A stretch of 29,601 bases of DNA from positions 1 through 29,601 of the IMG/VR virus record IMGVR_UViG_3300000553_000228; one strand, written 5' to 3'. The translations under genes and the position numbers were made by a program. The stretch comes from a virus. Numbering within the stretch: position 1 is the stretch's first letter; every line of letters begins with the position of its first letter. Of the stretch, positions 2,129 through 27,312 are shown in pieces. The notes beneath the pieces were generated by a model that saw only the letters and a list, made by a program, of their open reading frames with translations, made no database searches and had not been told where the DNA came from.

Positions 2129-2589
2129 ATGCTCTCTTTCAGTATGTTTTTTGAAAACTTTGAGAATTCTGAACAATCTTTGGAACCTTTTCAATATGCC
2201 TTTCCCGATCTTAGCACGGTTTCACCTTCCAAATTTGGATTTCAAAGCAATCTTTCCAATCTTCCTGAAGAACTTCCTTATGGGTTTTGGATTGATAGAC
2301 ACGGTAATTTTATGCCAGTTGGTATTAGAGGTCATGAAAAAGCAGCAATGAATGTAGTTAAAGTTTTACATTCAATGTATCCAGAAGTTAATGCCCCCCG
2401 AGATATGCTTTTCATTTTATGTATGATAATGGATTTATTCGGGTGGTTTGTGTACAAGGACGAAATTACTGTCAGCAATATAAAAAGTCTCTGGTTACTA
2501 TGCCCCAATTAAAGACTCTTAAAGCTATTAGCAATCATTACAATATTTCAGATTTTCAGTTTTCTCCTGAGAAGCAATTCTACTATTAG
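2129..2589 (+). pseudogene. Frameshifted paralogue of the 3966-4382 gene
   Basis: From ATG 2129 the frame encodes an FFENF-type start and then a YGFWIDRHGNFMPV block, which matches the YGFWVDPHGNFIPV block of the minus-strand gene at 3966-4382. The frame is lost at a run of six C (2394-2399) and ends at 2512. One added C would join it to another frame that runs without a stop to TAG 2587-2589. That frame encodes a GFIRV block and TMPQLKTLKAI, matching GWIRV and TMAQLKTLREI in the paralogue. The break is therefore a one-base indel (mutation, sequencing error, or -1 slippage on the C run). The frame is also open from 2009, but that part is repeat sequence. A degenerate promoter box, TTAGATA, lies 5 bases before ATG 2129. 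The function of the family is unknown. Confidence 0.75.
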
Positions 2590-3671
2590 AATCCTGCTTC
2601 CTGACTATAGATCTTTTCCATGTTTTTGGAATAGTGACGACTTCCCATTTCTCTTCCTCCCCTGACTTGCATCAATTGTAGTATTCTCTGTCTATGATAA
2701 GGAGGAAGTTTTTCGAAGTCATCGATTCCGGTGGCCCAGGTTTCATGATGATTGGTTAGACCATAGGATCTTGTCCATTGCACCAATTTCGTTAATTCAT
2801 TTAAATTGATTTTATTTTTTAGCATTACCGGATGGGCCAGTTTATTGACTTCGTTTCGAACTTTGGTGTCTATGGATGCATTGTGGAAATTAGTTACGAA
2901 TTCCGTCGCCTGATTTGAATTTGCAATTATATTATAGACAGTTCTGGACAAGTCCCGTACAAAATCGGGTTCAATTGTACTATACTTTTTTCCCAGAACA
3001 GATACCATATAAGATTGTAATTTTGTATATACTTCTTTCATTGCTTGTTGAGGTTTTATTTTGGAACTAACAAACATTCTGAATAGAGTTTGCATTTGAT
3101 TTGTGAACAAATCAAAGTATGATTTTTCATCTTTGGATATATGAGGATGAGGTAATTTATCTATGTTACTTTGTGTCAAAGCTTCATAATAATCTTTTAT
3201 GGCCTGTGTGAAATTTGTTCCATTATTAAACATCCATAAATGTGCCCATTCATGTACTATGGTTTTTGTCAAGTCCTTTAACATCGTTTCCAGTTCTTCA
3301 TCCATTTCCAATAGCTTATAGTGATGTAGATAAGAAAGATAATAATCGGAACTGATCTTCATATATTTGGAAGATCTTTTTCCTTGGGGATGTTCGGGAT
3401 TGCCCATCGCCCGTCCAACTATGGTCTGTTCCAGAGGACAGAATAAGACATTTGTGTGCATTGACGAAAATCCTATTTTTTGAATTGCGGTTTTGGCGTC
3501 TCTGAATGCCCGCTCGAATTCCGGTTTCAGAGCTACTGCCGAACGATAACTTGTTCCATCCATAGAAGGAACATAAACAGAAAACATTGGATAGTTGGCA
3601 AATAATGTAACTTTGGAGGAATCTCTGAATCGTCTGCCCTCGTTCAATGTATAGTATTCATGAAATGTCAT
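2586..3671 (-). CDS. HExxH zinc metalloprotease, candidate internal virion protein
   Basis: A 361-aa protein with a zinc-protease motif HEWAH at residues 140-144 (His140, Glu141, His144) inside a helix. A distant candidate third ligand is Glu310 in NHHETWATG. The first 11 residues, MTFHEYYTLNE, resemble T4 capsid-targeting peptides, and Leu9-Asn-Glu11 fits the (L/I)xE cleavage rule of the T4-type prohead protease. This suggests packaging in the head, processing, and ejection into the host; that step is inference. The start is fixed by CTAAATA 5 bases upstream. The gene ends convergently, overlapping the stop of the frameshifted plus-strand gene. The substrate is unknown and the rest of the protein matches nothing I can name. 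Confidence 0.7.
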   Translation of the reverse strand: MTFHEYYTLNEGRRFRDSSKVTLFANYPMFSVYVPSMDGTSYRSAVALKPEFERAFRDAKTAIQKIGFSSMHTNVLFCPLEQTIVGRAMGNPEHPQGKRSSKYMKISSDYYLSYLHHYKLLEMDEELETMLKDLTKTIVHEWAHLWMFNNGTNFTQAIKDYYEALTQSNIDKLPHPHISKDEKSYFDLFTNQMQTLFRMFVSSKIKPQQAMKEVYTKLQSYMVSVLGKKYSTIEPDFVRDLSRTVYNIIANSNQATEFVTNFHNASIDTKVRNEVNKLAHPVMLKNKINLNELTKLVQWTRSYGLTNHHETWATGIDDFEKLPPYHRQRILQLMQVRGGREMGSRHYSKNMEKIYSQEAGF

Positions 3672-3676
3672 ATGGA

Positions 3677-3683
3677 TATTTAG
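3677..3683 (-). promoter_or_regulatory. Late-promoter box CTAAATA before the metalloprotease
   Basis: Exactly 5 bases separate the box from the ATG ending at 3671. Confidence 0.75.
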
Positions 3684-3686
3684 TTC

Positions 3687-3935
3687 TCATAGATACCAGA
3701 TTCCCTTGGTCAAATAATAGTGGCCTTTATCATATTGTCCTATACCAATGTATTCACAGGTAGATTCTCTGTTCACTATGGCTTGTTGTTTTAGAGTTCT
3801 ATTATAGAGTTCTATTTCATATAGAAGTCGATCATCTACCATCTTATATAACAAATTCTGCATATAATCATCTATATTAGATTGTTCTTTAATCTCAGTC
3901 ACAGTCACCAAGGGAGCATAAGCAAATTCAAGCAT
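3687..3935 (-). CDS. Hypothetical protein, 82 aa
   Basis: No recognised family. A small, soluble, mixed-charge protein with a predicted long helix over residues 12-45 (acidic, then NRTLKQQ) and a Tyr-rich C-terminus. It lies between the metalloprotease and the 138-aa gene on the same strand, 15 bases upstream of the former. No CTAAATA box precedes it, so it is probably transcribed with the gene upstream. Its N-terminus (MLEFAYAPL) does not look like a targeting peptide. Confidence 0.6.
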   Translation of the reverse strand: MLEFAYAPLVTVTEIKEQSNIDDYMQNLLYKMVDDRLLYEIELYNRTLKQQAIVNRESTCEYIGIGQYDKGHYYLTKGIWYL

Positions 3936-3965
3936 ATCCTTATATTATCACGGTTTTTTGAAAAA

Positions 3966-4382
3966 TCAAGTATCTCTCTTTACAAATTCGAATTCATAAT
4001 GATCTTTGATTTCTCGTAAAGTTTTCAGTTGGGCCATCGTCGGTTGAGCGGTTTTTATCAATTCAAAAAATACAGTTTTAGTATATCCACTTAACATTAC
4101 CCTGATCCATCCCGCTTTAAACATCACATCATATGAATAACCTCCAATATGAGAGTCTTTTCCATTCTCCTTTAGCCATTGTTTTGCTTTAAATATCATG
4201 GTTTCTGCCACATCTGAATGTCCCGTCTCTTCTACCACAGGAATAAAATTTCCATGGGGATCTACCCAAAAACCATAAGGAGGATATTGGGGAAGTTGTT
4301 TGGTGCTTATGGAAATTCCCAAAACATCCTTGGGAATTTCATTTAAAGCACTTTCAATCAAGAATTGTAGAAAGGTTTTCAT
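3966..4382 (-). CDS. Conserved phage protein with GFWVDPHGNF motif, candidate internal protein
   Basis: A 138-aa protein. Its start, MKTFLQFLIES, closely resembles the capsid-targeting peptides of T4 internal proteins (T4 IPIII begins MKTYQEFIAEA as I recall it). Leu8-Ile-Glu10 and Leu13-Asn-Glu15 are potential prohead-protease sites. The block YGFWVDPHGNFIPV (about residues 36-49) is followed by a helix with conserved His/Ala positions and a GWIRV block. The same architecture occurs in the broken gene at 2129-2589, so the two form a family within this genome. Function unknown; packaging is inferred from the N-terminus only. A CTAAATA box lies 15 bases upstream, farther than usual. Confidence 0.65.
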   Translation of the reverse strand: MKTFLQFLIESALNEIPKDVLGISISTKQLPQYPPYGFWVDPHGNFIPVVEETGHSDVAETMIFKAKQWLKENGKDSHIGGYSYDVMFKAGWIRVMLSGYTKTVFFELIKTAQPTMAQLKTLREIKDHYEFEFVKRDT

Positions 4383-4397
4383 AGATTATTATTATCT

Positions 4398-4404
4398 TAT
4401 TTAG
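4398..4404 (-). promoter_or_regulatory. CTAAATA box with long spacer
   Basis: It lies 15 bases before the ATG at 4382, so this transcript would have a short leader. Confidence 0.45.
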
Positions 4405-4436
4405 TTCCTTTTAGATGTACTAATGGTCTATTTGGA

Positions 4437-4443
4437 TTAAATA
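4437..4443 (+). promoter_or_regulatory. Late-promoter box TTAAATA, 5 nt before ATG 4449
   Basis: A one-base variant of CTAAATA with the standard 5-base spacer to the 613-aa gene. Confidence 0.7.
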
Positions 4444-4448
4444 CTCAT

Positions 4449-6290
4449 ATGTCCTTTGAAATACTTCATGATCACTACCTAGTGACGGAAAGATATATTG
4501 CTCCTCTTAACGCACTTGAAAAATATAAAGATGATCCAAATGTATTTGTCACCTTTACCAATAAAGTAGAGCCAAGGGGACAATCCAATGTTTCAAAGTA
4601 TTATCCTTCGGATTTGCGGCCTAGTATAGGAACCAAGGAAGTTGATAAGAGCAGTCATAAAATAGGAATTAATCCTTTAACCCAGTATGGCACTCCTGCG
4701 GGAATTTATTGTTATCCCGTGCAGGCGTACTGGAAAAATTTGAACTCTTATAACATCGATTTTGCAGGACAAAATCCTATTGTTTGGATTTTCAAACCCA
4801 GAGATTCCGATAATATTTGCAGAGCTTCCACATATTCCGATGAGGATTGGGAAAAGGATAAAGATACTCTAGAAGATCTTTATCCCAAATATAACGTAGA
4901 TTCCATACTAGCAGGAATGGATAGGCGATACAGATACACTCCTTTTATAAAATTATGGACAATTACAAGATATATTGCATATAAACAAAAAGGATTTGAC
5001 CCAAATGAAAGATTAAACGACAAAAATAAATTAACCACTTCCGCTACTTGGTCTGTTATTTTATCTTATTTTTATGATGGTATGGTGGATGATACGGGGT
5101 CAGGAACTATTCATAGTAATGAACCCACCCAGGCCGTATTTTGGACGAAGGCACAAATCGAAGTACTGGATAAAATAGACCGAACTAATGGAGGAAAGAT
5201 TAAAGATTACTCGACCAAGGAACAATGGGCAGGGGGCAATGTGTCATTATCCAAGAATACTAAATTGCTTAGTAAAATATATGACATGTTAAAAAATGAA
5301 AAAAAACTTCCAAGGCATATAATACAAGCATATAAAAAAGATACGACATTTAAATTATTGTTCTATGCATATAGGGGTAAATTTGATAAGATGACAAAGT
5401 ATTTGTCGAGTAATGATCTTCCGGAGGCTATAAATAGAAAAATATTTGATCTGTACCTGGATAAGGCAGATCCTTCGGATTATAAAAATATCAATCTTAG
5501 GTCATTGACCAATTTAGATATACAAGCAAAGTATCCGTCAGGAAAAATTTCTGGATGGATGTCTGCTTCATATTTTAAACGGGCAACTCCAGAGGAAATC
5601 TTTAATATAGGAGATAAAGTAAAGTGTATTGATGATTCTGGATATACTAATGTAATTACTATGGGAAAAGAATATGAAGTGCAACGTGTAAATGTTTTTG
5701 GGCCGGGTAATATATTTCTTAGAATTTTAGGGGATAAGGGATTTACTACGGGATTCAGATCGACCAGATTTGAAAAGGTTGAGTCATCAGATGCCCCAAA
5801 ATATAAAGTTGGAAATGAATTTGAACCTAGTCAAATGAAGTCAGACTATAATGTTAAGATTACTGAAGTATTACCTAATACCTATTCATATGATATTTTC
5901 AATACCAAAGTCGAAAATGACAAGCAGGGCGGTAATATGGAGCATAAAGAATTAGAGGGATTTTTAGATAAGGATTATAAACTTATAAGTCCTTCTGAAG
6001 ATAAGCCTTCCCAACTAGATACTATAAAAGATATTAAAAATATTATTCCTACTAAATCTGATAGCTACAATCCAAAATATGAGGTTGGTGATAATTTTAT
6101 TTGTAATCATCCATATGCCCACTGGGATTTAAAAATAATCAAAGTGGACGAACTTAATGATAGTTACTCATATGAAATCATTTCTACTAAATCTGAAAAT
6201 TATGGGCAAGTAATAGACAAAGGAACTATGTCAATCAAAGAACTTGAGGACTATGTGAACAAAGAATATACAGAAGATGTTAAAATTTAA
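4449..6290 (+). CDS. Large multidomain hypothetical protein, candidate internal virion protein
   Basis: 613 aa. The N-terminal third has a block around KIGINPLTQYGTPAGIYCYP (about residues 71-90) followed by FAGQNPIVWIFKP. I recall similar blocks in uncharacterised large-phage proteins but cannot name the domain. The middle (about 150-370) is helical and charged. The C-terminus carries three barrel-like modules of the form Y/F-x-V/I-G-D/N starting near residues 395, 456 and 544. The last two are clear duplicates (SYDIFNTK versus SYEIISTK, each followed by a KELE helix). The first residues, MSFEILHDHYLVTER, weakly resemble a capsid-targeting peptide. It is the only plus-strand gene between minus-strand clusters and has its own late-promoter box. 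Enzymatic activity cannot be claimed. Confidence 0.7.
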   Translation: MSFEILHDHYLVTERYIAPLNALEKYKDDPNVFVTFTNKVEPRGQSNVSKYYPSDLRPSIGTKEVDKSSHKIGINPLTQYGTPAGIYCYPVQAYWKNLNSYNIDFAGQNPIVWIFKPRDSDNICRASTYSDEDWEKDKDTLEDLYPKYNVDSILAGMDRRYRYTPFIKLWTITRYIAYKQKGFDPNERLNDKNKLTTSATWSVILSYFYDGMVDDTGSGTIHSNEPTQAVFWTKAQIEVLDKIDRTNGGKIKDYSTKEQWAGGNVSLSKNTKLLSKIYDMLKNEKKLPRHIIQAYKKDTTFKLLFYAYRGKFDKMTKYLSSNDLPEAINRKIFDLYLDKADPSDYKNINLRSLTNLDIQAKYPSGKISGWMSASYFKRATPEEIFNIGDKVKCIDDSGYTNVITMGKEYEVQRVNVFGPGNIFLRILGDKGFTTGFRSTRFEKVESSDAPKYKVGNEFEPSQMKSDYNVKITEVLPNTYSYDIFNTKVENDKQGGNMEHKELEGFLDKDYKLISPSEDKPSQLDTIKDIKNIIPTKSDSYNPKYEVGDNFICNHPYAHWDLKIIKVDELNDSYSYEIISTKSENYGQVIDKGTMSIKELEDYVNKEYTEDVKI

Positions 6291-6823
6291 ATAACATTTC
6301 CTCTTATCTTCTTCCAATACTCGGGGGAAGCTATAAAATACTTCACTACTGTTCCAATATCAGGATAAGTAAGAGTGACTTTGTTTCCTTCCACCTTATC
6401 TATTGTTGCTCCTCCAAGAACACTTTTCATTCTTTCTGGAGTCATCATTTTTTTAAAAAGCATCTTCTCAATAATATTTGGGCCTCTATATCCCATCTTT
6501 TGTAGAAGTGCGAATATCTTATCATCTACCATCCCCCATACTGGAAGATGTTTTGCGGCCAGTTCCTTAAATCCTTTATATTTGGATTTGTCTGATCCAG
6601 CCGCCCCCACTAATTTAACGAATCCACTGTTTTGCGCCCGAACTGTTATGAATCCATTGGAATCTCCATAGAACACCCAGTTCTGTGCTCTCGATAAGAA
6701 CTTGTCCTTGGCCCAAGATTTTCCAGTGCTTTTCAGATATTCGGCATTAAAAATTTCATATGCCCTGTTCATGTCGATATCTGAACTTACAAAAGATTCT
6801 AAAAATATTTTAAAGGATTTCAT
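6287..6823 (-). CDS. Hypothetical 178-aa protein with capsid-targeting-like start
   Basis: The preferred start is ATG 6823, giving MKSFKIFLESF, rather than the open frame reaching back to 6922. It lies 4 bases after the stop of the upstream gene, and the N-terminus fits the other putative internal proteins here. The next region (about residues 17-75, with WVFYGDSNGFITVR and SGFVKLVGAAG) has a strand-turn-strand pattern reminiscent of GNAT-like folds, but this is weak. The C-terminus holds a KVEGNKVTLTYPDIG strand pair. Function unknown. It is translated from the message of the gene at 6828-7238 and overlaps the end of the 613-aa gene convergently by 4 bases. Confidence 0.65.
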   Translation of the reverse strand: MKSFKIFLESFVSSDIDMNRAYEIFNAEYLKSTGKSWAKDKFLSRAQNWVFYGDSNGFITVRAQNSGFVKLVGAAGSDKSKYKGFKELAAKHLPVWGMVDDKIFALLQKMGYRGPNIIEKMLFKKMMTPERMKSVLGGATIDKVEGNKVTLTYPDIGTVVKYFIASPEYWKKIRGNVI

Positions 6824-6827
6824 TAAA

Positions 6828-7238
6828 TTAGTAATTGAAATTTTTAAGAAGACTCCTATGCCACGCATTTGAAATTTCCTCTGGGTTAGTTTCTTCTCCT
6901 TCTGCTTCGGGGAGATTATCATTATTTATAAAAATCCTCCATGAACCATCTCCGTATAGTTTGAGAATGCTTAATTCTCTTCCCTCCCCGTGAATTGATA
7001 ATTTGGCAGTATGGCTACCTGGAGTTATTTTTTTGGCTAATCCGGTAGGTGCATATGATACATAGACTTTAAATTTATCTGATCCGTGCAGGACATCTTT
7101 GGATAAATATTGTTCAGTTTCCACTTTTAGTTTATCCAGAAGACGATTTTTCTCTTTATATGGATCAGGAGTTTTGTTTCCAAACCAACCTTCTTCCATA
7201 AGAGAAGCCATATTTCTAATATCGTGAGAGAATGACAT
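6828..7238 (-). CDS. Hypothetical 136-aa protein with capsid-targeting-like start
   Basis: The start at 7238 is supported by a CTAAATA box exactly 5 bases upstream; the open frame extends to 7277, but that start lies upstream of the box. The N-terminus MSFSHDIRNMASLMEEG contains Leu13-Met-Glu15, a fit to the prohead-protease (L/I)xE rule. The rest has a Lys-rich helix (residues 25-45) and an SH2- or PH-like mix of strands (KFKVYVSY, AKLSIHG, WRIFINN) without a nameable family. It is likely the first gene of a two-gene unit with 6287-6823. Confidence 0.65.
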   Translation of the reverse strand: MSFSHDIRNMASLMEEGWFGNKTPDPYKEKNRLLDKLKVETEQYLSKDVLHGSDKFKVYVSYAPTGLAKKITPGSHTAKLSIHGEGRELSILKLYGDGSWRIFINNDNLPEAEGEETNPEEISNAWHRSLLKNFNY

Positions 7239-7243
7239 ATTAG

Positions 7244-7250
7244 TATTTAG
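7244..7250 (-). promoter_or_regulatory. Late-promoter box CTAAATA before ATG 7238
   Basis: Spacer of 5 bases (ctaat); the box lies inside the 3' end of the neighbouring membrane-protein frame. Confidence 0.75.
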
Positions 7251-9349: not shown

Positions 9350-10111
9350 ATGAGCAAACAAACCAAAGGTAGAATATATGGATGGTCCCCGCAATTATCG
9401 GACCAACGAGATTTTTTATATGAGCCTAAGACAGAAACTTTACAAACTCTTCCGACATTGGTTGATCTTCGCCCAAAATGTCCCCCGGTTTATGACCAGG
9501 GACAGCTAGGTAGTTGCACCGGAAATGGAATAGCATTTATTCATGAATTTGATCAGTTGAAACAAAATGAAGTTTCATTTCTTCCATCCAGGCTTGCAAT
9601 TTATTATGATGAGAGAAAGCTAGAAGGAACAATTAAAAGTGACGCGGGAGCAAATATTAGAGATGGTATAAAAGTAATCGCCTCTACGGGAACTGCAAGT
9701 GAGATTTTGTGGCCTTATGATATTACCAAGTTTACAAAAGCCCCGCCTACAAAATATTATACTGCTGCCAAGTTACATACAAGTATTACCTATAAATCAG
9801 TATTGAATGATCTTCCTACTATTAAGGCATCTCTGGCCGAATTGTTTCCTATTGTTTTTGGGTTCACAGTATATGCCAGCTTTGAATCAGATGCGGTGGC
9901 AACTACGGGAATTATGCCCATGCCCAAGAAAGGGGAGCAAGTTCTAGGTGGACATTGTGTGGCTATGGTGGGATATGATGATTCTAAACAAGTTATTATT
10001 TGTAGAAATTCTTGGGGGGCTGACTGGGGAATGGCTGGGTACTTTACAATGCCCTATGCATTTTTAGCTAAAAATTGTAGTGATTTGTGGCAGGTTTCAC
10101 AAGTTAAATAA
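9350..10111 (+). CDS. Papain-like (C1A) cysteine protease
   Basis: 253 aa, close in length to a mature papain domain plus a short N-terminal extension. The oxyanion Gln50 and nucleophile Cys56 lie in YDQGQLGSCTGNG, the catalytic His202 in GGHCVAMVGYD, and the Asn220 in CRNSWGADWG; all four papain catalytic positions are present. The first 45 residues (GWSPQLSDQRDF, LPTLVDLRP) look like the short leader common in bacterial and viral C1 peptidases. No signal peptide is visible, so it would act in the cytoplasm or in the virion unless released by lysis. It lies inside the lysis-type region with its own late promoter. The substrate is unknown. Confidence 0.9.
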   Translation: MSKQTKGRIYGWSPQLSDQRDFLYEPKTETLQTLPTLVDLRPKCPPVYDQGQLGSCTGNGIAFIHEFDQLKQNEVSFLPSRLAIYYDERKLEGTIKSDAGANIRDGIKVIASTGTASEILWPYDITKFTKAPPTKYYTAAKLHTSITYKSVLNDLPTIKASLAELFPIVFGFTVYASFESDAVATTGIMPMPKKGEQVLGGHCVAMVGYDDSKQVIICRNSWGADWGMAGYFTMPYAFLAKNCSDLWQVSQVK

Positions 10112-10135: not shown

Positions 10136-10897
10136 ATGAAACTTACGGATAAGTTCGAAAAATGTGCCGGGGTTTATATACTAAAAAATATATGTAATGG
10201 AAAATATTATGTCGGAGAGACTGTCAATATTAAACATAGGATGTATTATCATTCCATAGGAACAAAACAAGTAATCCACAAAGCCATTATAAAATATGGT
10301 ATCGATAATTTTGAAGTTTATGTAGAATACCTTCCAAATTTTAGTAAGGACGACTTAATAGAGTTGGAAGAACAACTTATAAAAAGATTTAATAGTATTG
10401 GGTCTAATGGGTATAATCTATGCCCTAAAGGGGTAAATCATACCGGATTTATCTGCACCGAGGAAACTAAGAAAAAATTAGCATTGGCAAGTTCTCGTAG
10501 AGTTTGGTCAGAAGAGTCAAAATTGAAGATATCTAAATCCAAATTGGGGATTCCTCGATCAGAAGAAACTAAAAGAAAAGTATCAGAATCTAACAAGGGA
10601 AAAGTCTTGTCGGAAGAACATAAACGTAACATATCAAACACTACTAAAGGGAGAATAGGAAAACCGCATACAGAAAAAACAAAAACAAAAATCGGAAACA
10701 TGAATAGGGGAAGAATTCATACCGAAGAACACAAAAAGAAAATTTCGGAGGGAGGGAGAGGACTAAAACGATCCGAGGAAACCAGAAAAAGAATGTCGGC
10801 AGCATCTACTGGCCGAATAATGTCTAAAGAATCTATTCAAAAAGGAATAGAAACCAGAAGAAAAAATAGAGAAAATAAACTAACTCCATTAGACTAA
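10136..10897 (+). CDS. GIY-YIG homing endonuclease with NUMOD3 repeats
   Basis: 253 aa. The catalytic module has Gly-Val-Tyr (12-14), Tyr-Val-Gly (25-27), Arg35 and a Glu-rich helix ending in NGYNLCP (about 93-99). After residue 105 come about seven copies of a SEETKRKISE-like motif, the NUMOD3 DNA-binding unit of SegA-type T4 endonucleases. It is free-standing between the papain-like protease and the holin candidate. It is related to the second GIY-YIG gene at 26605-27312 but clearly diverged from it. It probably spreads by cutting a related phage lacking it near this locus. Confidence 0.9.
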   Translation: MKLTDKFEKCAGVYILKNICNGKYYVGETVNIKHRMYYHSIGTKQVIHKAIIKYGIDNFEVYVEYLPNFSKDDLIELEEQLIKRFNSIGSNGYNLCPKGVNHTGFICTEETKKKLALASSRRVWSEESKLKISKSKLGIPRSEETKRKVSESNKGKVLSEEHKRNISNTTKGRIGKPHTEKTKTKIGNMNRGRIHTEEHKKKISEGGRGLKRSEETRKRMSAASTGRIMSKESIQKGIETRRKNRENKLTPLD

Positions 10898-14733: not shown

Positions 14734-15079
14734 CTAATTTTTGCAAATATCTTCGTAAATAGTGTAAACTTTTTTCTCCTCGATGAATCAAGCATTGGGA
14801 ATTGTCCTTGGCTGATTTAAGTAACCACCCCTGAGTAGTCGAATCGACACTCTTCACTGTTCCCGATCTGAGAGCGTGTTTAATCATATCCACAACTTTA
14901 GATACATCTCCATGGCCCGAAGGTTTTTCTTCTAAAACTTCTACTTTTTCCTCCACTGTCTCCTCCACTGTCTCATATATAAGAGTAGTATAATCCTTTA
15001 TACTAGGTTTTATTTTTTCGTTATTATTTTCAGAATAAATATTCTTATATAATTTTTCAATATCTGATTTGTAATTCAT
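14723..15079 (-). CDS. Hypothetical protein, 118 aa
   Basis: The N-terminus SDIEKLYKNIYSEN resembles DDLGKLYNESLRL at the start of the neighbouring 109-aa protein, so the two share a short N-terminal motif. A Glu/Val-rich stretch (about residues 36-52, repeated VEE units) follows, then a helical C-terminal domain with LIHRGEKSLHYLRRYLQKL. No family recognised. The start overlaps the stop of the 15076-15405 gene (4-base overlap), suggesting coupled translation. Confidence 0.65.
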   Translation of the reverse strand: MNYKSDIEKLYKNIYSENNNEKIKPSIKDYTTLIYETVEETVEEKVEVLEEKPSGHGDVSKVVDMIKHALRSGTVKSVDSTTQGWLLKSAKDNSQCLIHRGEKSLHYLRRYLQKLDAL

Positions 15080-15405
15080 AAAGTTTCTATATATGTTTTT
15101 AAAGTTCCCAGAACATTCAAGGCCACCACATCTTGATTATTAGATCTATCCAATCTATCTATTAGCCTATTTACAACATTTAAAATTTTACTTACTGGAT
15201 CTTCAGATTCTTCCTGTTGAGTTCCATTATAAGTAGGAGTAGTCATTGGATTATAATCATCAGTTCCTTTATTGAAAGATCCCTTATAAGGCTTACTGTA
15301 TGTGGTTTCTACGGGTCTATAATGGATAGACCCGATGGAAGGAGGGGCCGGATTATCCAACCTTAAACTTTCATTATATAATTTTCCAAGATCATCAATC
15401 CACAT
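15076..15405 (-). CDS. Hypothetical protein, 109 aa
   Basis: It starts with a short helical motif (IDDLGKLYNESLRL) shared with the next gene. A Pro/Tyr/Thr-rich disordered linker (about residues 17-65) is followed by a C-terminal helix (VSKILNVVNRLIDRLDRSNN) that may oligomerise. No family known to me. It is first in a minus-strand unit reading toward dut, with a TTAAATA box 5 bases before its ATG, and divergent from nrdJ. Confidence 0.65.
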   Translation of the reverse strand: MWIDDLGKLYNESLRLDNPAPPSIGSIHYRPVETTYSKPYKGSFNKGTDDYNPMTTPTYNGTQQEESEDPVSKILNVVNRLIDRLDRSNNQDVVALNVLGTLKTYIETL

Positions 15406-15565: not shown

Positions 15566-17872
15566 ATGAGTATTAAAGCCTTATCAGATTACACTTATTA
15601 TTCTCGTTATGCGAGATACGACAAACAAAAAAAGAGAAGAGAAACGTGGGAGGAGGCAGTAGGGAGAGTGTTTGATATGCATAGAAAAAAGTATGCTAAT
15701 CAAATTTCGGAAAATCCAAAATTAGATGAATTGATAAGTTTTGCACAATCAATGCAAAATAAAAAAAGAGTTCTTGCCGCCCAACGAACTTTACAATTTG
15801 CAGGAGAACCAATTTTCAAACATGAATTAAAAGTTTACAATTGTCTGTTTACTCATGTAGATAGGAACAGAGTTTTTCAGGAATCTATGTATGCCTTACT
15901 TTGTGGGGGCGGTGTAGGGTTTTCTATTCAAAAACATCACATAAAACAACTAAAACGAATTGTCCCCAAAACCAGTAATAGTAAAAAGTTTGTAATAGAA
16001 GATTCAATTGAAGGATGGTCGGATGCGGTGGGAGTACTATTGAATAGTTATTTTATAAATCCTAACGAATTTGAAGAATTTTCTGGTTGGCAAATAGATT
16101 TCGATTTCGGCCTTATTAGACCCGAAGGGACATTAATTGCAGGACAATTTAAAGCACCTGGTCCAGAAGGACTTAAAAACTCATTGGGAAAAATAAAAGA
16201 AGTCATCGAAAATCGTATGGCATCTTTATATTTCTTAAATGGGGAATTTGCTGGTAAACTTAGACCTATTGATTGCTATGATATTTTAATGCATATTTCT
16301 GATGCTGTGTTGTCGGGAGGGGTTCGTAGAAGTGCTACTCTATGCTTATTTTCTCCTGAAGATGACGAAATGCTCAATGCTAAAATCGGAGATTGGTTCA
16401 TTAAAAATCCTCAACGGGGCAGAAGCAATAACAGTGCCGCTTTACTGAAAGGATTTACTTCAAGAGAATTATTTCGCAAAATAATGCAATCAACCAAAGA
16501 ATTCGGAGAACCTGCCTTTGTATGGCTAGATGATCTGGATATTGGGTATAATCCCTGCGTGGAGATTGGCATGTATCCTAAAACTAGAGATGGTAGAAGT
16601 GGATTTCAAGGATGCAATCTTACAGAAATTAATGGAAAGTATTGTACTTCCAAGGAAAACTTCCTTAAAGCATGTGAAGCATCTGCTATTATCGGAACCT
16701 TACAGGCAGGATATACAAATTTTAAATATCTTTCCAAGGAAACCCAAGAAATTTTTGAAGAAGAGGCATTATTAGGATGTTCAATTACAGGAATGATGGA
16801 TAATCCAGATGTCATTTTTAATGAGGAATTTCAACAGGATACGGCAAAATATATTTTAGAGGTCAATGCTAAGGTAGCTAAAATGATTGGAATTAAACCT
16901 GCCGCCCGTGCAACTTGTGTTAAACCTGCGGGTTCTACATCTTGCGTACTTGGAACCGCTTCCGGTATTCATCCACATCATGCCAAAAGATATATCAGAA
17001 GAGTGCAAGCAAATAAAACTGAATTTTGTCTTCAAGAGACTGAGAGAATTAATCCGGCAGCAGTAGAAGATTCCGTATGGTCCACTAATAAGACGGATAA
17101 GGTAATTTCATTTTTATGTGAGGTTCCAGTGGGCGCAATTGTGAAAAATCAGCTTAAAGCAGTAGAACTTTTAGAAAAAGTAAAATTAACTCAAAAAAAT
17201 TGGGTAGCTTATGGGAAAGTTGCAGATCGTTGTGTGAATCCTAAAGTAAGTCATAATGTTTCCAATACGATTACAGTAAGACCAGATGAGTGGGAAGAAG
17301 TGGAAAATTTTATTTTTGATAACCAACAATGGTTTGCCGGAATTTCACTTTTAGCAGCATCGGGAGACTTGGACTATGCGCAAGCCCCCTTTGCCACTGT
17401 GCTGTCTCCAACCGAATTAGTGAGGGAATATGGCGACGCATCTATATTCGCATCAGGACTGATCGTGGACGGATTACACGCCTTCGATGAAAATTTATGG
17501 AGAGCGTGTGATACTGTTTTGGGGCATGGGGAGGATATAGAGTTAACAATTTCTCCTCCGGAATATCCTACCAAGAAAACAAATAAGGAACTTGCAACAT
17601 ATTTTCTGGAAAGAGAAACATATGATAATTGTTTCTTTAAAGTAGATTGGGTTCGCAGGGTCAATCAATTCGCCGCTAGGTACTTTGACAATGATGTAAA
17701 GCGCGCTACATATTGCATGAAACACGTTTCTTTATGGAAAACCTGGTGTGATCTTAAAAGAGAATATGTGGAACTAGATTGGACAGAAATAGTGGAGGAG
17801 CAGGAAACATACATTCATGCCGACACTATGGGAAGCGCGGCTTGCTCAGGAGGTAGTTGCGAACTAATATAA
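15566..17872 (+). CDS. nrdJ: Class II (adenosylcobalamin-dependent) ribonucleotide reductase
   Basis: 768 aa, close to the 739 aa of the Lactobacillus leichmannii monomeric enzyme. It reduces ribonucleotides to deoxyribonucleotides using a thiyl radical generated from adenosylcobalamin, independent of oxygen. Seen here: Cys93 (YNCLF) and Cys350 (FQGCNLTEI) as the active-site redox pair, Asn329-Cys331-Glu333 in NPCVEI as the radical site, GGVRRSA, PAARATCVKPAGST, and a C-terminal CSGGSC (Cys760, Cys765) matching the swinging reductant pair. No NrdB-type partner is needed. It lies upstream of clpP with a 4-base gap. It has no canonical late box (only ACAAATA 4 bases before the ATG), so it may be an early or middle gene. 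Confidence 0.95.
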   Translation: MSIKALSDYTYYSRYARYDKQKKRRETWEEAVGRVFDMHRKKYANQISENPKLDELISFAQSMQNKKRVLAAQRTLQFAGEPIFKHELKVYNCLFTHVDRNRVFQESMYALLCGGGVGFSIQKHHIKQLKRIVPKTSNSKKFVIEDSIEGWSDAVGVLLNSYFINPNEFEEFSGWQIDFDFGLIRPEGTLIAGQFKAPGPEGLKNSLGKIKEVIENRMASLYFLNGEFAGKLRPIDCYDILMHISDAVLSGGVRRSATLCLFSPEDDEMLNAKIGDWFIKNPQRGRSNNSAALLKGFTSRELFRKIMQSTKEFGEPAFVWLDDLDIGYNPCVEIGMYPKTRDGRSGFQGCNLTEINGKYCTSKENFLKACEASAIIGTLQAGYTNFKYLSKETQEIFEEEALLGCSITGMMDNPDVIFNEEFQQDTAKYILEVNAKVAKMIGIKPAARATCVKPAGSTSCVLGTASGIHPHHAKRYIRRVQANKTEFCLQETERINPAAVEDSVWSTNKTDKVISFLCEVPVGAIVKNQLKAVELLEKVKLTQKNWVAYGKVADRCVNPKVSHNVSNTITVRPDEWEEVENFIFDNQQWFAGISLLAASGDLDYAQAPFATVLSPTELVREYGDASIFASGLIVDGLHAFDENLWRACDTVLGHGEDIELTISPPEYPTKKTNKELATYFLERETYDNCFFKVDWVRRVNQFAARYFDNDVKRATYCMKHVSLWKTWCDLKREYVELDWTEIVEEQETYIHADTMGSAACSGGSCELI

Positions 17873-17876
17873 TTTT

Positions 17877-18533
17877 ATGAATTGGAACTATAAAAATACA
17901 AAAACAATGTGTGAAGAAGAATCCCTAAATAATTCTCCCCTACAACCTATTATCATAAATTCTAGTTCTCCCGAGTTTATGCAAATGGGATCAGGGAATA
18001 TCCGAGTGGTGGAAAATAAGATATTCTTTTATGGAGATATTGAAGAATCTTCAATTTTAGATCTTAATAAAACTCTACTGGAAACAGATCTAAAACTTCA
18101 AAATACTAGAAATATCCTAGGAGGAGATAGTTTCACTCCAATTATTCATTTACACTTGAGTACTTATGGGGGGAGTATTTTTTCCGCATTTGCTGCCGTG
18201 GATATGATTAGATCATTAAAATCGGAAGTCCACACTTATATTGATGGATCAGTAGCATCAGCAGGAACCCTATTAGGAGTAATCGGAAAGAAAAGATTTA
18301 TTGGAGCATATAGTCACATGTTAATTCATCAGCTATCATCTGGAGTTTATGGCAAATTTTCCGAAATGGAAGATGAAATTTTCAACTGCACCAATCTTAT
18401 GAAGATCTTAAAAGATTTTTATAAGAAAACCACTAAGATTCCTATGAAGAAGCTTGACGATCTTTTGAAAAGAGATATTTGGCTTAATGCGGAAGAATGT
18501 TTAGCTTATGGGTTTGTAGATGTAATACTATGA
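17877..18533 (+). CDS. clpP: ClpP-like serine protease
   Basis: 218 aa. The complete ClpP triad is visible: Ser128 in GSVASAG, His151 in HMLIHQLSSG and Asp200 in KRDIWLNAEE; STYGGSIFSA corresponds to the usual NSPGGS oxyanion loop. The first 40 residues are a non-conserved extension; a second Met is at residue 11. ClpP normally forms a double seven-mer fed by a Clp ATPase. No ATPase is in the window, so it may use the host's, or act alone as phage ClpP-family maturation proteases do. A dedicated gp21-like prohead protease is present elsewhere, which argues against a head role. It overlaps the spike gene convergently by 6 bases. Confidence 0.93.
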   Translation: MNWNYKNTKTMCEEESLNNSPLQPIIINSSSPEFMQMGSGNIRVVENKIFFYGDIEESSILDLNKTLLETDLKLQNTRNILGGDSFTPIIHLHLSTYGGSIFSAFAAVDMIRSLKSEVHTYIDGSVASAGTLLGVIGKKRFIGAYSHMLIHQLSSGVYGKFSEMEDEIFNCTNLMKILKDFYKKTTKIPMKKLDDLLKRDIWLNAEECLAYGFVDVIL

Positions 18534-23066: not shown

Positions 23067-24524
23067 TTAGAGATATACACTAACAGAACCAGGGGTAAAG
23101 GCAACCCCAAGACCTTTTACGATAATTAGATGATAATAAAGATTAGCACCAAAGATATTATTTACAATACCATATCTCGTCATCAGACCCACTCTAGGAG
23201 TGAAGTTGATAGGATCAATGGCACGTTGCACCATGATCGGGATATATGGACAGTAAATGATACCAGTATCATAGTATTCAGAACCTTTATAACCCATTAG
23301 GCAATATTCAATTGGGTCCACGCGAGCGGGGGTGTATTGATTATTTGCATAGTAGGTAGTATTCTGAACTTCAGTTCTTGTATCACGATAGACCGTAAAG
23401 CGGCCTCCCACGGTTCCTACTTTGCTGATACCAACACCAGCAGTCGAAACTGTGCCATTGATTTCATAAATCTTAAAGTCGGGTAGCATTTCCAGAATGG
23501 AGCACACGCGAGGTGTGGCAATCAGGAAGTTAGCAGCACCTCTGCGATTTCTCGCAGCCATACGGCCAGCCTCGATAATAAGTTTTTGGTAGAAGGTCAA
23601 GTTACGTTCAGCGGTCCAGCGACCATCTGCACTAACAGGACTCCAGAAGGAGAATCCAGCCCCATAACCAGCATTGAACGCAGACTGTAGCATACGCATA
23701 ACAACCTCACGGTCGATCTCTGCTTGTAGCTCGTAGCTCATTGCATTTGTGAGTTCGCCATCAATGTCTATGTTTTGCATATTCTTGATGTCTTGCTCTA
23801 GTTCAATGGACCAGCGAGTTGCTAATCTACGGGTTCCTGCCTCTACTGAGGTCTTCTCGAACTTCATTTCAATCTGAGGAATCCTTCCGGTATTCTCATA
23901 ATTTTCTAGAAGTTGAGCTACCCCACGATCTTGATCTGCGAAAAGCCAACCAGAAGCATTACCGGATAGAGCACCAGAGCTAATACCAGTGAAACGAGTA
24001 TCAAGTAATTGATATCCGAGTTCATTAGAATTAGGTAATCCAGTATTACCAGTATAGCCAAGACCAGGATTAGTACCACCGGAGTTACCAGTTTTACCAA
24101 TCATGTCTGTATCTGAGAGGAAATCTGATTGATAAGCATAACGCAAAGCGAAAGCTAGTCCAACAGGTCCCCCCATAGGTTGCACACCACAAATCTCGTT
24201 AGAGATAAGTTCAGGGAAAGTTCTACGAATCATAGGGATCAAGATCTTAGGAAGACGGGAATCATTAGCAGCATAATTGTCACCAACTGCCATAGCCTGC
24301 GGGCCTGAACCAGCAGCAGTAGTTGCGCCAAAGATACCACCAGAACTATTTCCGGCTTCTTGGATACACCATCTCTCTTGATTTTCCATAAGGATGGCAG
24401 TGTTACGATAATCGTGTTCATTCTGGATCTCACGAACATCTTTCGATGTGTAGTCTAGAACATTTTTCCACTTAGCAACAACTTGGTTGACATCTTTAGG
24501 GTCAATATTTTGAGGAATTTTCAT
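23067..24524 (-). CDS. 23: Major capsid protein, T4 gp23-like
   Basis: 485 aa (T4 gp23 has 521). It forms the hexamers of the head shell. Diagnostic blocks: RRTFPELISNEICGVQPMGG and FALRYAY (T4: RRAIPNLIAFDICGVQPM), TRWSIELEQDIKNM, ELQAEIDREVV, the FLIATPRV strand, and near the C-terminus YDTGIIYCPYIP, DPINFTPRVGLMTRYGI. The segment Ile54-Gln-Glu56 before Ala57 (CIQEAG) is the expected prohead-protease cleavage site, comparable to T4 cleavage before Ala66. There is no late-promoter box or strong ribosome binding site; it is probably expressed from the gp21-gp22 transcript. A terminator follows. Confidence 0.96.
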   Translation of the reverse strand: MKIPQNIDPKDVNQVVAKWKNVLDYTSKDVREIQNEHDYRNTAILMENQERWCIQEAGNSSGGIFGATTAAGSGPQAMAVGDNYAANDSRLPKILIPMIRRTFPELISNEICGVQPMGGPVGLAFALRYAYQSDFLSDTDMIGKTGNSGGTNPGLGYTGNTGLPNSNELGYQLLDTRFTGISSGALSGNASGWLFADQDRGVAQLLENYENTGRIPQIEMKFEKTSVEAGTRRLATRWSIELEQDIKNMQNIDIDGELTNAMSYELQAEIDREVVMRMLQSAFNAGYGAGFSFWSPVSADGRWTAERNLTFYQKLIIEAGRMAARNRRGAANFLIATPRVCSILEMLPDFKIYEINGTVSTAGVGISKVGTVGGRFTVYRDTRTEVQNTTYYANNQYTPARVDPIEYCLMGYKGSEYYDTGIIYCPYIPIMVQRAIDPINFTPRVGLMTRYGIVNNIFGANLYYHLIIVKGLGVAFTPGSVSVYL

Positions 24525-24589: not shown

Positions 24590-25468
24590 TTACTTCATAC
24601 CCTTGCCTTTGGAAAGGACAGAGAGGTATTCGTTTTGAAGTTCATTATTATTTACTGATTCTTCTACAACTTTTTGAATTGGAACAACATCAGGCTTGGT
24701 TTCTCTATTTTGAAGAGCTTCTTCTTTTAGAGTTTTCAGTTTGGAAGTCTCTTGTTTTTCAAAGAGACGAAGAGTGTAGTCAAAGTTTTCTTGAATAAAT
24801 TGTAGAGATTTATCTCCAAGAGCTTTGCGGAGGAAGTTCTTTTTAGCTTCTGGAAGTTTTGAAGTTTTAGTTTCAAGGAACATTGCAACTTCGGTTTGTT
24901 TATTCGCCTCGTAAAGTGCTTTGAATTGTTTCTTTAGTTCGGAATTTTCCTTTTGAAGTTTAGTCAATTGAGTTTTTCCATCAACTACTGCATCTTGAAT
25001 CGATTCATTCATTAAAGCGGAATCAACGGCAAGAACCTTTCTCATATTTTCCAGTACAGCATAAGCAGTCTTATTTTTGACCGCTTGAGCAAATTCTTTT
25101 TGATCAAAAACCGTAGCCAAATATTCTTCATCTAAAAAGTTACTAATGGCTTCAGTTAAAGTCTTTTTAAAAGCCTTGGCAGATTTGTTAATATTTCTGG
25201 TGTAAAGCTTAACGATATTTACAAGCTTGGATGCATTATTTTTATCGACTGCCTCCACAACTTTCAACATTTTCTTAGCTCGATCCTTATCAAGAGTATC
25301 AACTAAAAGTTGTAGCTTTTGAGCATACATCTCATCCTGTTCAAGTAATGCGGCCTCTACTCCCAGTTCAACTTTGGCTTTGAATGCTTCCTCGATAGCA
25401 GTTAAAGTTTCCTCAGTTAATACCTTTTGGATTTCTTCAGTGAATAGATTTTTAAGATTGTTCTTCAT
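24590..25468 (-). CDS. 22: Prohead core scaffolding protein, T4 gp22-like
   Basis: 292 aa from ATG 25468, one base after the stop of the prohead-core gene; an in-frame ATG at 25504 would overlap that gene. The chain is almost entirely charged helix and coiled coil (KNLFTEEIQKVLTEETLTAI, long Lys/Glu heptads, KTLKEEALQNRE near the end), as expected of gp22, which fills the prohead and is then degraded by gp21. Several (L/I)xE sites are present, for example Leu17-Thr-Glu19. Its position between core and capsid genes matches T4 order 21-22-23. Confidence 0.88.
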   Translation of the reverse strand: MKNNLKNLFTEEIQKVLTEETLTAIEEAFKAKVELGVEAALLEQDEMYAQKLQLLVDTLDKDRAKKMLKVVEAVDKNNASKLVNIVKLYTRNINKSAKAFKKTLTEAISNFLDEEYLATVFDQKEFAQAVKNKTAYAVLENMRKVLAVDSALMNESIQDAVVDGKTQLTKLQKENSELKKQFKALYEANKQTEVAMFLETKTSKLPEAKKNFLRKALGDKSLQFIQENFDYTLRLFEKQETSKLKTLKEEALQNRETKPDVVPIQKVVEESVNNNELQNEYLSVLSKGKGMK

Positions 25469-25918: not shown

Positions 25919-25925
25919 TATTTAA
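25919..25925 (-). promoter_or_regulatory. Late-promoter box TTAAATA before ATG 25913
   Basis: It overlaps the end of the gp21-like gene; spacer 5 bases. Confidence 0.7.
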
Positions 25926-26596
25926 GATAAACTGTTAATAAAACGCACAATTTGCTCTCTTAAGAACTTATCTACGTCATGTTTGGGCAATTTGGAGATT
26001 TTCTTTTCAAAATCCTCATATAATTCTTCATATTTTCCTTCCCCTACAACATTCCAAGATTTTGATTCTAATATACCATCTACAAATGCTGTTGGATAAC
26101 TTGGATCAGCTACACAATCAATAGCAACCAAATACATATTTTCTACAATCTTATGGCCACTCGCTTCACGCAACGATCCCAAACTTCTGGTACTCATACC
26201 CAAGGCTACTCCGTTATTGATGAGTCCCTTTACTATATTTCCACAAGTCATTCCTTCCCCGGATAAAATCTTAGATTTTCCTATCCAAGCTTTACCATTT
26301 TTAACTAGCTCAGTAACTAAATGACACGCTCTTTCAGGATTAACTTCCGCCGTGCTAGAGTGATTGAGTTCGCCCATAGCTCTTTTAGTACGAACCATTT
26401 CATTTAAATATCGCCCAATTTCTCTATCTAATTCATGTTCTGGATATTCTCGACCATTTTTATTAAGTTCCGATCCTAAATATGGTCCTTTAACATAAAG
26501 GGAACTTCCCGTTCCGAGAGTTGATTGTTCTTCTATAACTTCCAACTCATCAAAATGATCGGGATCATTATACATTAATTTTAATTTTAGTGCCAT
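25922..26596 (-). CDS. 21: Prohead protease, T4 gp21-like
   Basis: 224 aa, similar to T4 gp21 (212 aa). It is a herpesvirus-assemblin-fold serine protease that matures the head by cutting after (L/I)xE. His79 lies in MGELNHSS and the likely nucleophile Ser135 in GMSTRSLG, followed by [13 protein letters not shown], all typical of the family. The N-terminal [19 protein letters not shown] is also characteristic. The C-terminal helix region may be removed by self-cleavage. CTAAATA lies 5 bases before the ATG. It is the protease expected to process the capsid protein (site at Glu56), the scaffold and the putative internal proteins at 2.5-7.3 kb. Confidence 0.95.
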
Positions 26597-26601
26597 ATAA
26601 A

Positions 26602-26608
26602 TATTTAG
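26602..26608 (-). promoter_or_regulatory. Late-promoter box CTAAATA before gp21
   Basis: Spacer 5 bases; the box overlaps the stop codon of the GIY-YIG gene. Confidence 0.75.
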
Positions 26609-27312
26609 TTATATCTCCATTTATAGTTGCCTGCCTTACGTCTTTTGCCTTTACAGACTTCGGTTATCTTGGTATTACTAACTCCCGTCATTCTTTCTGC
26701 TTCTCTTATGAAAAAATATTCCTTTATTATTTCTCCCTCCATAGTCATTTGGATTACCGATTTTTTATTAGGATAATTATGTCTTAATTTTTCTATAGTT
26801 GGTTCCGAAAATGTTTTCCCCTTAGCACTCTTTGACATATTTAACTTGTGTTGTTCCGAAAATATTTTTCCGGTATGGGAGATCGATAATGAGGCTTTAT
26901 GCTCTTCAGACAATGGCTTTCCTCGTTTGCCATTGGAAATATTCAATTTATGTTGAGCCGTTTTAGGTTTTTTTAGATACAATAAGCATTTATTTCTCCA
27001 CCCATTAATACAAATATTATAACCATTTGGTGTTATAGTATCATACATGGCTATCATATCCTCTTCCATGGATTGTAATTGTTCTTTGGTCGAGGCGGGA
27101 AAATACTCACAATACACTTGGAAAGAATCTATTCCATTTTTTAAAATTGATCGGTGTATTAGCTGATTTGATTTTGCGTTTTTATGAACTGCCATCCTTC
27201 GCTTTATATTTAGACTCTCTCCAATATATTCTTTTCCAGTTATTAGATTTTTTATAATGTAAATTCCAGGGTATTCTTTGAAATTTGGATCATCCAATTT
27301 AAGTAAACTCAT
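26605..27312 (-). CDS. GIY-YIG homing endonuclease with NUMOD repeats
   Basis: 235 aa. PGIYIIKN and EYIGES carry the GIY-YIG pair, followed by a conserved Arg in NIKRRMAVH, a Glu helix and NGYNICING. NUMOD3-type repeats (LSEEHKASLSIS, FSEQHKLNMSKS, FSEPTIEKL) follow. The end looks like a NUMOD1 module (QMTMEGEIIKEY ... AERMTGVSNTKITEVCKGKR ... YKWRY). It is free-standing between the gp4-like and gp21-like genes. It is a distant relative of the gene at 10136-10897, which lacks the NUMOD1 end. CTAAATA lies 5 bases upstream. Confidence 0.92.
   Translation of the reverse strand: MSLLKLDDPNFKEYPGIYIIKNLITGKEYIGESLNIKRRMAVHKNAKSNQLIHRSILKNGIDSFQVYCEYFPASTKEQLQSMEEDMIAMYDTITPNGYNICINGWRNKCLLYLKKPKTAQHKLNISNGKRGKPLSEEHKASLSISHTGKIFSEQHKLNMSKSAKGKTFSEPTIEKLRHNYPNKKSVIQMTMEGEIIKEYFFIREAERMTGVSNTKITEVCKGKRRKAGNYKWRYN

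Follow-up and report, generated by a model that had tools for sequence, protein, structure and literature searches.

What is encoded by a run of neighbouring phage genes that all begin with short peptides of aromatic and aliphatic residues? The question is raised by positions 2129-7238 of an uncultured viral record of 29,601 bases (IMGVR_UViG_3300000553_000228, G000 in our set; the whole stretch is called here the window). An earlier, sequence-only reading had taken these peptides for capsid-targeting leaders like those of the T4 internal proteins (IPs), and the block for a cargo island whose products are injected with the DNA and likely act on host defences or metabolism. Injected proteins act ahead of the phage's own synthesis, few are known beyond T4, and a leader that can be read in the sequence allows candidate injected effectors of uncultured phages to be listed. 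Our analysis, which is based on sequence (the leader, the modularity of the proteins, a Glu at the junction, late promoters, a protease and a capsid cleavage site in the same genome, and bodies of enzyme type), makes it quite probable that these genes form an island in a T4-like phage, expressed late and coding for effector cargo that is packaged in the prohead, trimmed by the protease and injected.

Leader-bearing genes of the window

The six N-terminal starts of the earlier reading were all found as open reading frames (ORFs), three of them with the (L/I)xE leaders that it had described (LNE, LIE and LME), and the gp21-like protease and the capsid protein with an IQE site were recovered in the same window (Table 1). 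It is known from mutants of the T4 capsid-targeting sequence (CTS) that residues 4 and 7 serve targeting and residues 8 and 10 processing (PMC9026906), and these positions recur in the leaders of this lineage. The window leader closest to that of the T4 IPs is MKTFLQFLIE (3966-4382), which shares with T4 MKTYQEFIAE the aromatic residues 4 and 7, the hydrophobic residue 8 and Glu 10. The register of the first three is exact in genes 3966, 6287 and 2129 and shifted by one residue in 2586; elsewhere in the block, the leader of 6828-7238 belongs to a second class (Y-type) and that of 4449 is weak. A strict (L/I)xE stands at the leader end in 3/6 genes, the site in 4449 being VTE. Gene starts were picked mechanically from ORFs, and the longest such ORF for 6287-6823 begins at 6922. 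The C-terminal part of 2129-2512 reads on in another frame to about 2589, with the frameshift near a C6 run at about 2394-2399, where a mutation and a sequencing error are indistinguishable.

Table 1. Leader-bearing genes, promoter-like boxes and head genes of the window (a slash marks the predicted junction)
Feature	Position	Strand	Description
Leader gene	2129..2512	+	starts MLSFSMFFENFE; leader MLSFSMFFE on a frameshifted paralogue of 3966-4382 (PYGFW family)
Leader gene	2586..3671	-	leader MTFHEYYTLNE/G; HEWAH...ExWA[TV] zincin-type metalloprotease-like body, 361 aa
TAAATA late-promoter-like box	3677..3682	-	5 nt before the 2586-3671 ATG
ORF within the block	3687..3935	-	82 aa, no clear leader
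Leader gene	3966..4382	-	starts MKTFLQFLIES; leader MKTFLQFLIE/S; PYGFW-family body
TAAATA box	4398..4403	-	15 nt before the 3966-4382 ATG
TAAATA box	4438..4443	+	5 nt before the 4449 ATG
Leader gene	4449..6290	+	starts MSFEILHDHYLVTER; weak leader MSFEILHDHYLVTE/R; 613-aa body
Leader gene	6287..6823	-	leader MKSFKIFLE/S; predicted GNAT acetyltransferase-fold body, 178 aa
Leader gene	6828..7238	-	Y-type leader MSFSHDIRNMASLMEE/G; 120-aa body
TAAATA box	7244..7249	-	5 nt before the 6828-7238 ATG
Leader gene	15076..15405	-	Y-type leader MWIDDLGKLYNES; outside the reported block; late box upstream
gp23-like major capsid protein	23067..24524	-	conserved cleavage site CIQE/A, residues 53-57
gp22-like scaffold candidate	24590..25468	-	gene order and LTE sites in MKNNLKNLFTEEIQKVLTEE; without confident database match
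gp21-like prohead protease	25922..26596	-	Peptidase_S77 (PF03420), E 1.5e-29; own N-terminal VIEE/Q site

The boxes upstream of the block genes suggest, by promoter sequence, that the cargo is expressed late. A TAAATA box lies 5-7 nt upstream of the ATG in 15/38 window genes, and likewise in the relatives G001-G010; 206/352 boxes are exactly 5 nt from the ATG and Shine-Dalgarno sequences are almost absent. At that spacing the box was found in none of T4, KVP40 and Cr30 and only a few times in HTVC008M. The late mRNAs of the lineage may, from this arrangement, be leaderless.

Judged by gp23 and gp21, the lineage is T4-like. The gp23-like capsid protein of the window reaches no more than about 34% identity with those of cultured phages, where the best matches are among cyanophages, and about 60-91% with those of 80 uncultured contigs; a search of sequenced phages for close DNA relatives of the window found none. 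The large relatives analysed were seven: G001 (206 kb, with a capsid protein 88% identical to that of the window), G002 (202 kb), G004 (225 kb), G006 (144 kb), G007 (154 kb), G009 (97 kb) and G010 (57 kb).

Leaders and candidate cleavage sites in related genomes

A motif search beyond the block, which the earlier reading had proposed as a check, showed that the leaders recur across late genes of the relatives on unrelated bodies. The F pattern, M-x(1-2)-F-x-x-[hydrophobic]2, was present at 80/1372 ORF starts versus 36/4349 methionines inside the same proteins, which served as the null (odds ratio 7.4, p=5e-25). When the starts of the window and the seven large relatives were divided by the TAAATA box, F or Y leaders occurred at 82/387 late-promoter starts (21%) versus 107/4062 internal methionines (2.6%; p=8e-40), and at 35/985 non-late starts (3.6%), which is not clearly above background; since the patterns were made on these data, the p-values are to be read as effect sizes and not as a pre-registered test. 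In its strict T4 form, with aromatic residues at 4 and 7, a hydrophobic one at 8 and Glu at 10, the pattern was found at 15 of the 1372 starts and at 2/4062 internal methionines; in T4, taken as positive control, it finds ipII and ipIII and misses IPI and Alt. A loose scan collected 134 leader proteins in 76 body clusters, many of them non-homologous, and late leader genes numbered about 11-17 per relative genome of 144-225 kb. Among the families that bear the motif in several large relatives are Zn_protease/PF05618 and a family of 146-156 aa starting MSKFL..LIEE. In L093:793-3008, four related proteins lie in tandem, each with MKDFKTYFE or similar as its start.

The same scan yielded none beyond background in cyanophage P-HM2 and pelagiphage HTVC008M, about 3 leaders in KVP40, 1-2 in Cr30 (including MKTFKQFFNESLTESDDYYYHGTS) and, in T4, its IPs; thus, such an expansion is not shared by T4-like phages in general. 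The Cr30 gene in question (28015; L191) joins that leader to an ART-like HGT start (ART, ADP-ribosyltransferase) and is testable in an isolate, Cr30 being a cultured Caulobacter phage.

The N-terminal cleavage site of the capsid proteins provides a column for comparison: P3 is I, L, M or V, P1 is Glu in 72/72 and P1' is mostly Ala or Ser, so that [LIMV]xE is present in nearly all of the 72 sequences. Within residues 6-22, [LI]xE was found in 25/44 late F-leader proteins versus 12/132 equal windows taken downstream in the same proteins (p=4e-10). The strict (L/I)xE was also considered as sole criterion and rejected as too common (67/277 other late N-termini).

Homologues, bodies and fusions

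The block is collinear with G001 at 37-47 kb, with five orthologue pairs of 31-80% identity. Gene 2586-3671 corresponds to G001 44247-45350 (31% identity), 4449-6290 to G001 40623-43787, which starts MPRFEDIFEVICE/R, and 6828-7238 to G001 39719 (MGNLVEE/A). In all five pairs a Glu is at or next to the junction, with F, V or M at P3 in some (window and G001, respectively: LMEE/G and LVEE/A, FLE/S and FFE/S, VTE/R and ICE/R, LIE/S and LLE/G, LNE/G and IRE/G). The same was seen in the metalloprotease family, where the leader varies in sequence and length and the Glu is kept directly before the body (TLNE/G, IIRE/G, LIKE/A, RLNE/S, FINE/G, VLTE/G, LLTE/A, ILTE/K and VVE/K). Moreover, F and Y leaders swap on homologous bodies (G001 19425 and G007 151662; window 3966 and G006 84028), and the bodies at the same locus differ between close relatives; the CCA-enzyme gene of the G001 island is missing from the window block. 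A tblastn search of cultured phages for the window metalloprotease found none, and scans of viral contigs gave no matches with 4449, 6828 and 3966 and only G001 with 6287, as single-protein patterns reach close relatives only.

The window cargo matched no confident family in Pfam, PHROGs or PADLOC, and a PDB sequence search with 6287 and 4449 found none. In 2586-3671, for which Pfam gave SprT-like at E 0.035 only, the HExxH residues H140, E141 and H144 and the downstream E310 are invariant in 14/14 homologues. Its AlphaFold model has a body core with a predicted local distance difference test (pLDDT) of about 80-93, HEWAH in a long helix, and, among its best matches, weak ones (Z 5-6.7) to M1 gluzincin cores (LTA4H, IRAP, EryP) mixed with unrelated ones. 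The body is probably, from these residues, a zinc metallopeptidase of the HExxH type. For the model of 6287-6823, the PDB matches listed were GNAT-type acyltransferases, aligned mostly from about residue 11 (Z 6.3-7.9). The model suggests that this body is probably a GNAT acetyltransferase; its confidence is moderate (pLDDT 59, two sequences, Z under 8), and the fold is accordingly no more than likely. In both modelled proteins residues 1-10 have a pLDDT of 27-28, and in 2586-3671 residues 1-13 are below 50. Hence a leader conserved within a folded domain, which the earlier reading had named as contrary to its view, was not what we found: the leader is outside the predicted fold and varies in homologues.

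The domains of leader-bearing relatives include PARP/ART (ART-PolyVal at 3.5e-6 in L095:4356; PARP at 2.9e-4 in L085:473), PolyA_pol/HD (1e-23), NUDIX, DUF5661 and PF05618; no ART was recognised among the window proteins. Enzymes of the CCA-adding/poly(A) polymerase type with a T4-like CTS leader were observed in L098:158-1660 (G001 38158-39660), G002 130838, L093:8471 and G009 46369, and by sequence they are candidates for an injected tRNA-repair enzyme.

Three fusions have a candidate cut site at the domain junction. In L095:4356 an ART-PolyVal domain that has its own leader is fused to the metalloprotease, and VFLTE/N is kept where the leader of the free protein ends; G001 19425 joins DUF5661 to a body that retains YLSE/MAL; and G009 46369 consists of an upstream domain, PolyA_pol/HD and NUDIX, with LMRE/Y at the first junction. 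These sites suggest polyproteins that would be cut apart in the prohead.

Interpretation and alternative explanations

The reading of the N-terminal peptides as capsid-targeting leaders is thus supported by their presence in late genes, on unrelated bodies, with a Glu at the junction and with an S77 protease and the capsid site in the same genome. We propose that the cargo genes would be transcribed late and that, as in T4, the leader of 9-16 residues would bind the prohead core, so that closure of the shell would trap the protein inside. Next, the gp21-like S77 protease would cut past the junction Glu, as the conservation of the site suggests, freeing in the head a mature enzyme that would be ejected into the host along with the DNA. 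The window cargo (a probable GNAT, a probable zinc metallopeptidase and others) would likely hit host proteins or defences early in infection. Host defences or metabolism as the target are suggested by the enzyme domains and by analogy with T4 Alt and Ip1-3, which may serve as precedents for host take-over and counter-defence; each of Ip1-3 inhibits a different GmrSD type IV restriction enzyme (PMC12373910).

Several points weigh against this interpretation. Packaging, cleavage and ejection in the lineage are predictions from sequence, the leader of 4449 is weak, and ordinary structural proteins are probably among the pattern matches. Structure predictions commonly leave N-termini unfolded. 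At P3, genes 6287 (FLE) and 2129 (FFE) depart from the T4 L/I rule by carrying Phe, a residue that entered the site pattern [LIMVF]xE post hoc; within residues 6-22 this pattern gave 40/44 late F-leader proteins versus 23/132 downstream windows. The F and Y patterns were likewise written after inspection of these data, and orthologous genes of the relatives do not count as independent cases, so we put weight on the effect size and on independent tests.

The proteins could be packaged and trimmed and yet be core, scaffold-filling or head-size proteins of the prohead instead of injected effectors, considering that sites of this kind are also cut in T4 gp22, gp67 and gp68 and that IPIII affects head assembly too (PMC9026906). 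We regard this as unlikely: the bodies are enzyme-like and differ at the same locus between close relatives, the window has its true core genes, which are conserved, at other positions, and scaffold filling has no need of a HEWxH and a downstream Glu invariant in all 14 homologues. Docking of the peptides to another late structure (tail, baseplate or cell envelope), as might be suspected from the tail-like proteins that match the loose pattern and from the lysis-type and envelope genes that adjoin the island, is more doubtful still, the leaders being near-identical to the T4 CTS and the gp21-type junction sites, kept in fusions, matching the capsid cleavage column. Finally, hydrophobic N-termini selected by eye could be a product of chance in single genes such as 4449 and for a motif as common as (L/I)xE, but as an account of the whole this is very improbable given the enrichment over internal methionines and over non-late genes of the same genomes, and the absence or rarity of leaders in P-HM2 and HTVC008M.

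Retaining injected effector cargo as the preferred reading, the T4-like leaders on the block genes and on many genes of the relatives make a sizeable set of injected enzymes probable, beyond the handful of T4. A broader proposal, to which we incline only slightly, is that the IP device of T4 has been turned into modular head-loading, with two swappable leader classes, multi-enzyme polyproteins cut in the prohead and one to two dozen cargo proteins per virion, including an acetyltransferase, a metalloprotease, an ADP-ribosyltransferase, a CCA-adding enzyme and a NUDIX protein.

Neighbouring features

The GC content is 55% over bases 1-500 of the window and drops to 27-37% past base 1000, near the island border. 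Positions 480-1010 are non-coding and contain at least five copies of CTAACNGNTAG(G) and four of a AATTAAAACCA-like sequence, direct and inverted, possibly an early promoter or operator array to judge from the repeats. Three homing-type endonuclease genes (one HNH and two GIY-YIG) lie at 1120-1944, 10136-10897 and 26605-27312, one of them directly adjoining the prohead protease gene. A papain-family cysteine protease (PF00112, 3e-13), unusual in a phage, is encoded at 9350-10111 with a late box, and a ClpP-like protease (1.4e-26; 17877-18533) adjoins a ribonucleotide reductase (15566-17872).

Comparison with known systems

That IP genes of T-even phages can be found through the signal sequence has long been known (Repoila 1994, cited in PMC12373910). 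The scale appears new, as do the second leader class, the fusions and the predicted repertoire of enzymes, for which a literature search of incomplete coverage found no paper; in the literature searched, GNAT, zinc protease, tRNA CCA-adding enzyme and NUDIX were not found among T4-type head cargo.

The system resembles T4 IPI, IPII and IPIII in its leader of roughly 10 residues with aromatic 4/7, hydrophobic 8 and Glu 10, in sharing this leader among unrelated bodies, in having an S77 protease in the genome and in the variable accessory loci (PMC9026906, PMC12373910). It differs from them in its two leader classes, predicted enzymes and fusions, and its packaging is a prediction. ART/PARP-like bodies behind leaders in the relatives recall T4 Alt, a head-packaged ADP-ribosyltransferase, although by these searches they are not Alt orthologues and one is fused to a metalloprotease. 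As in SPN3US and phiKZ, where many head-internal proteins are reported to be trimmed before ejection by a gp21-related protease (PMC5694885, PMC10052503), the cargo would be numerous and processed, but the propeptides of those phages contrast with the short T4-type leaders of this T4-like lineage. Compared with the three IPs plus Alt of T4, and with the at least 10 IPs reported in related phages, this lineage has about 11-17 late leader genes per genome.
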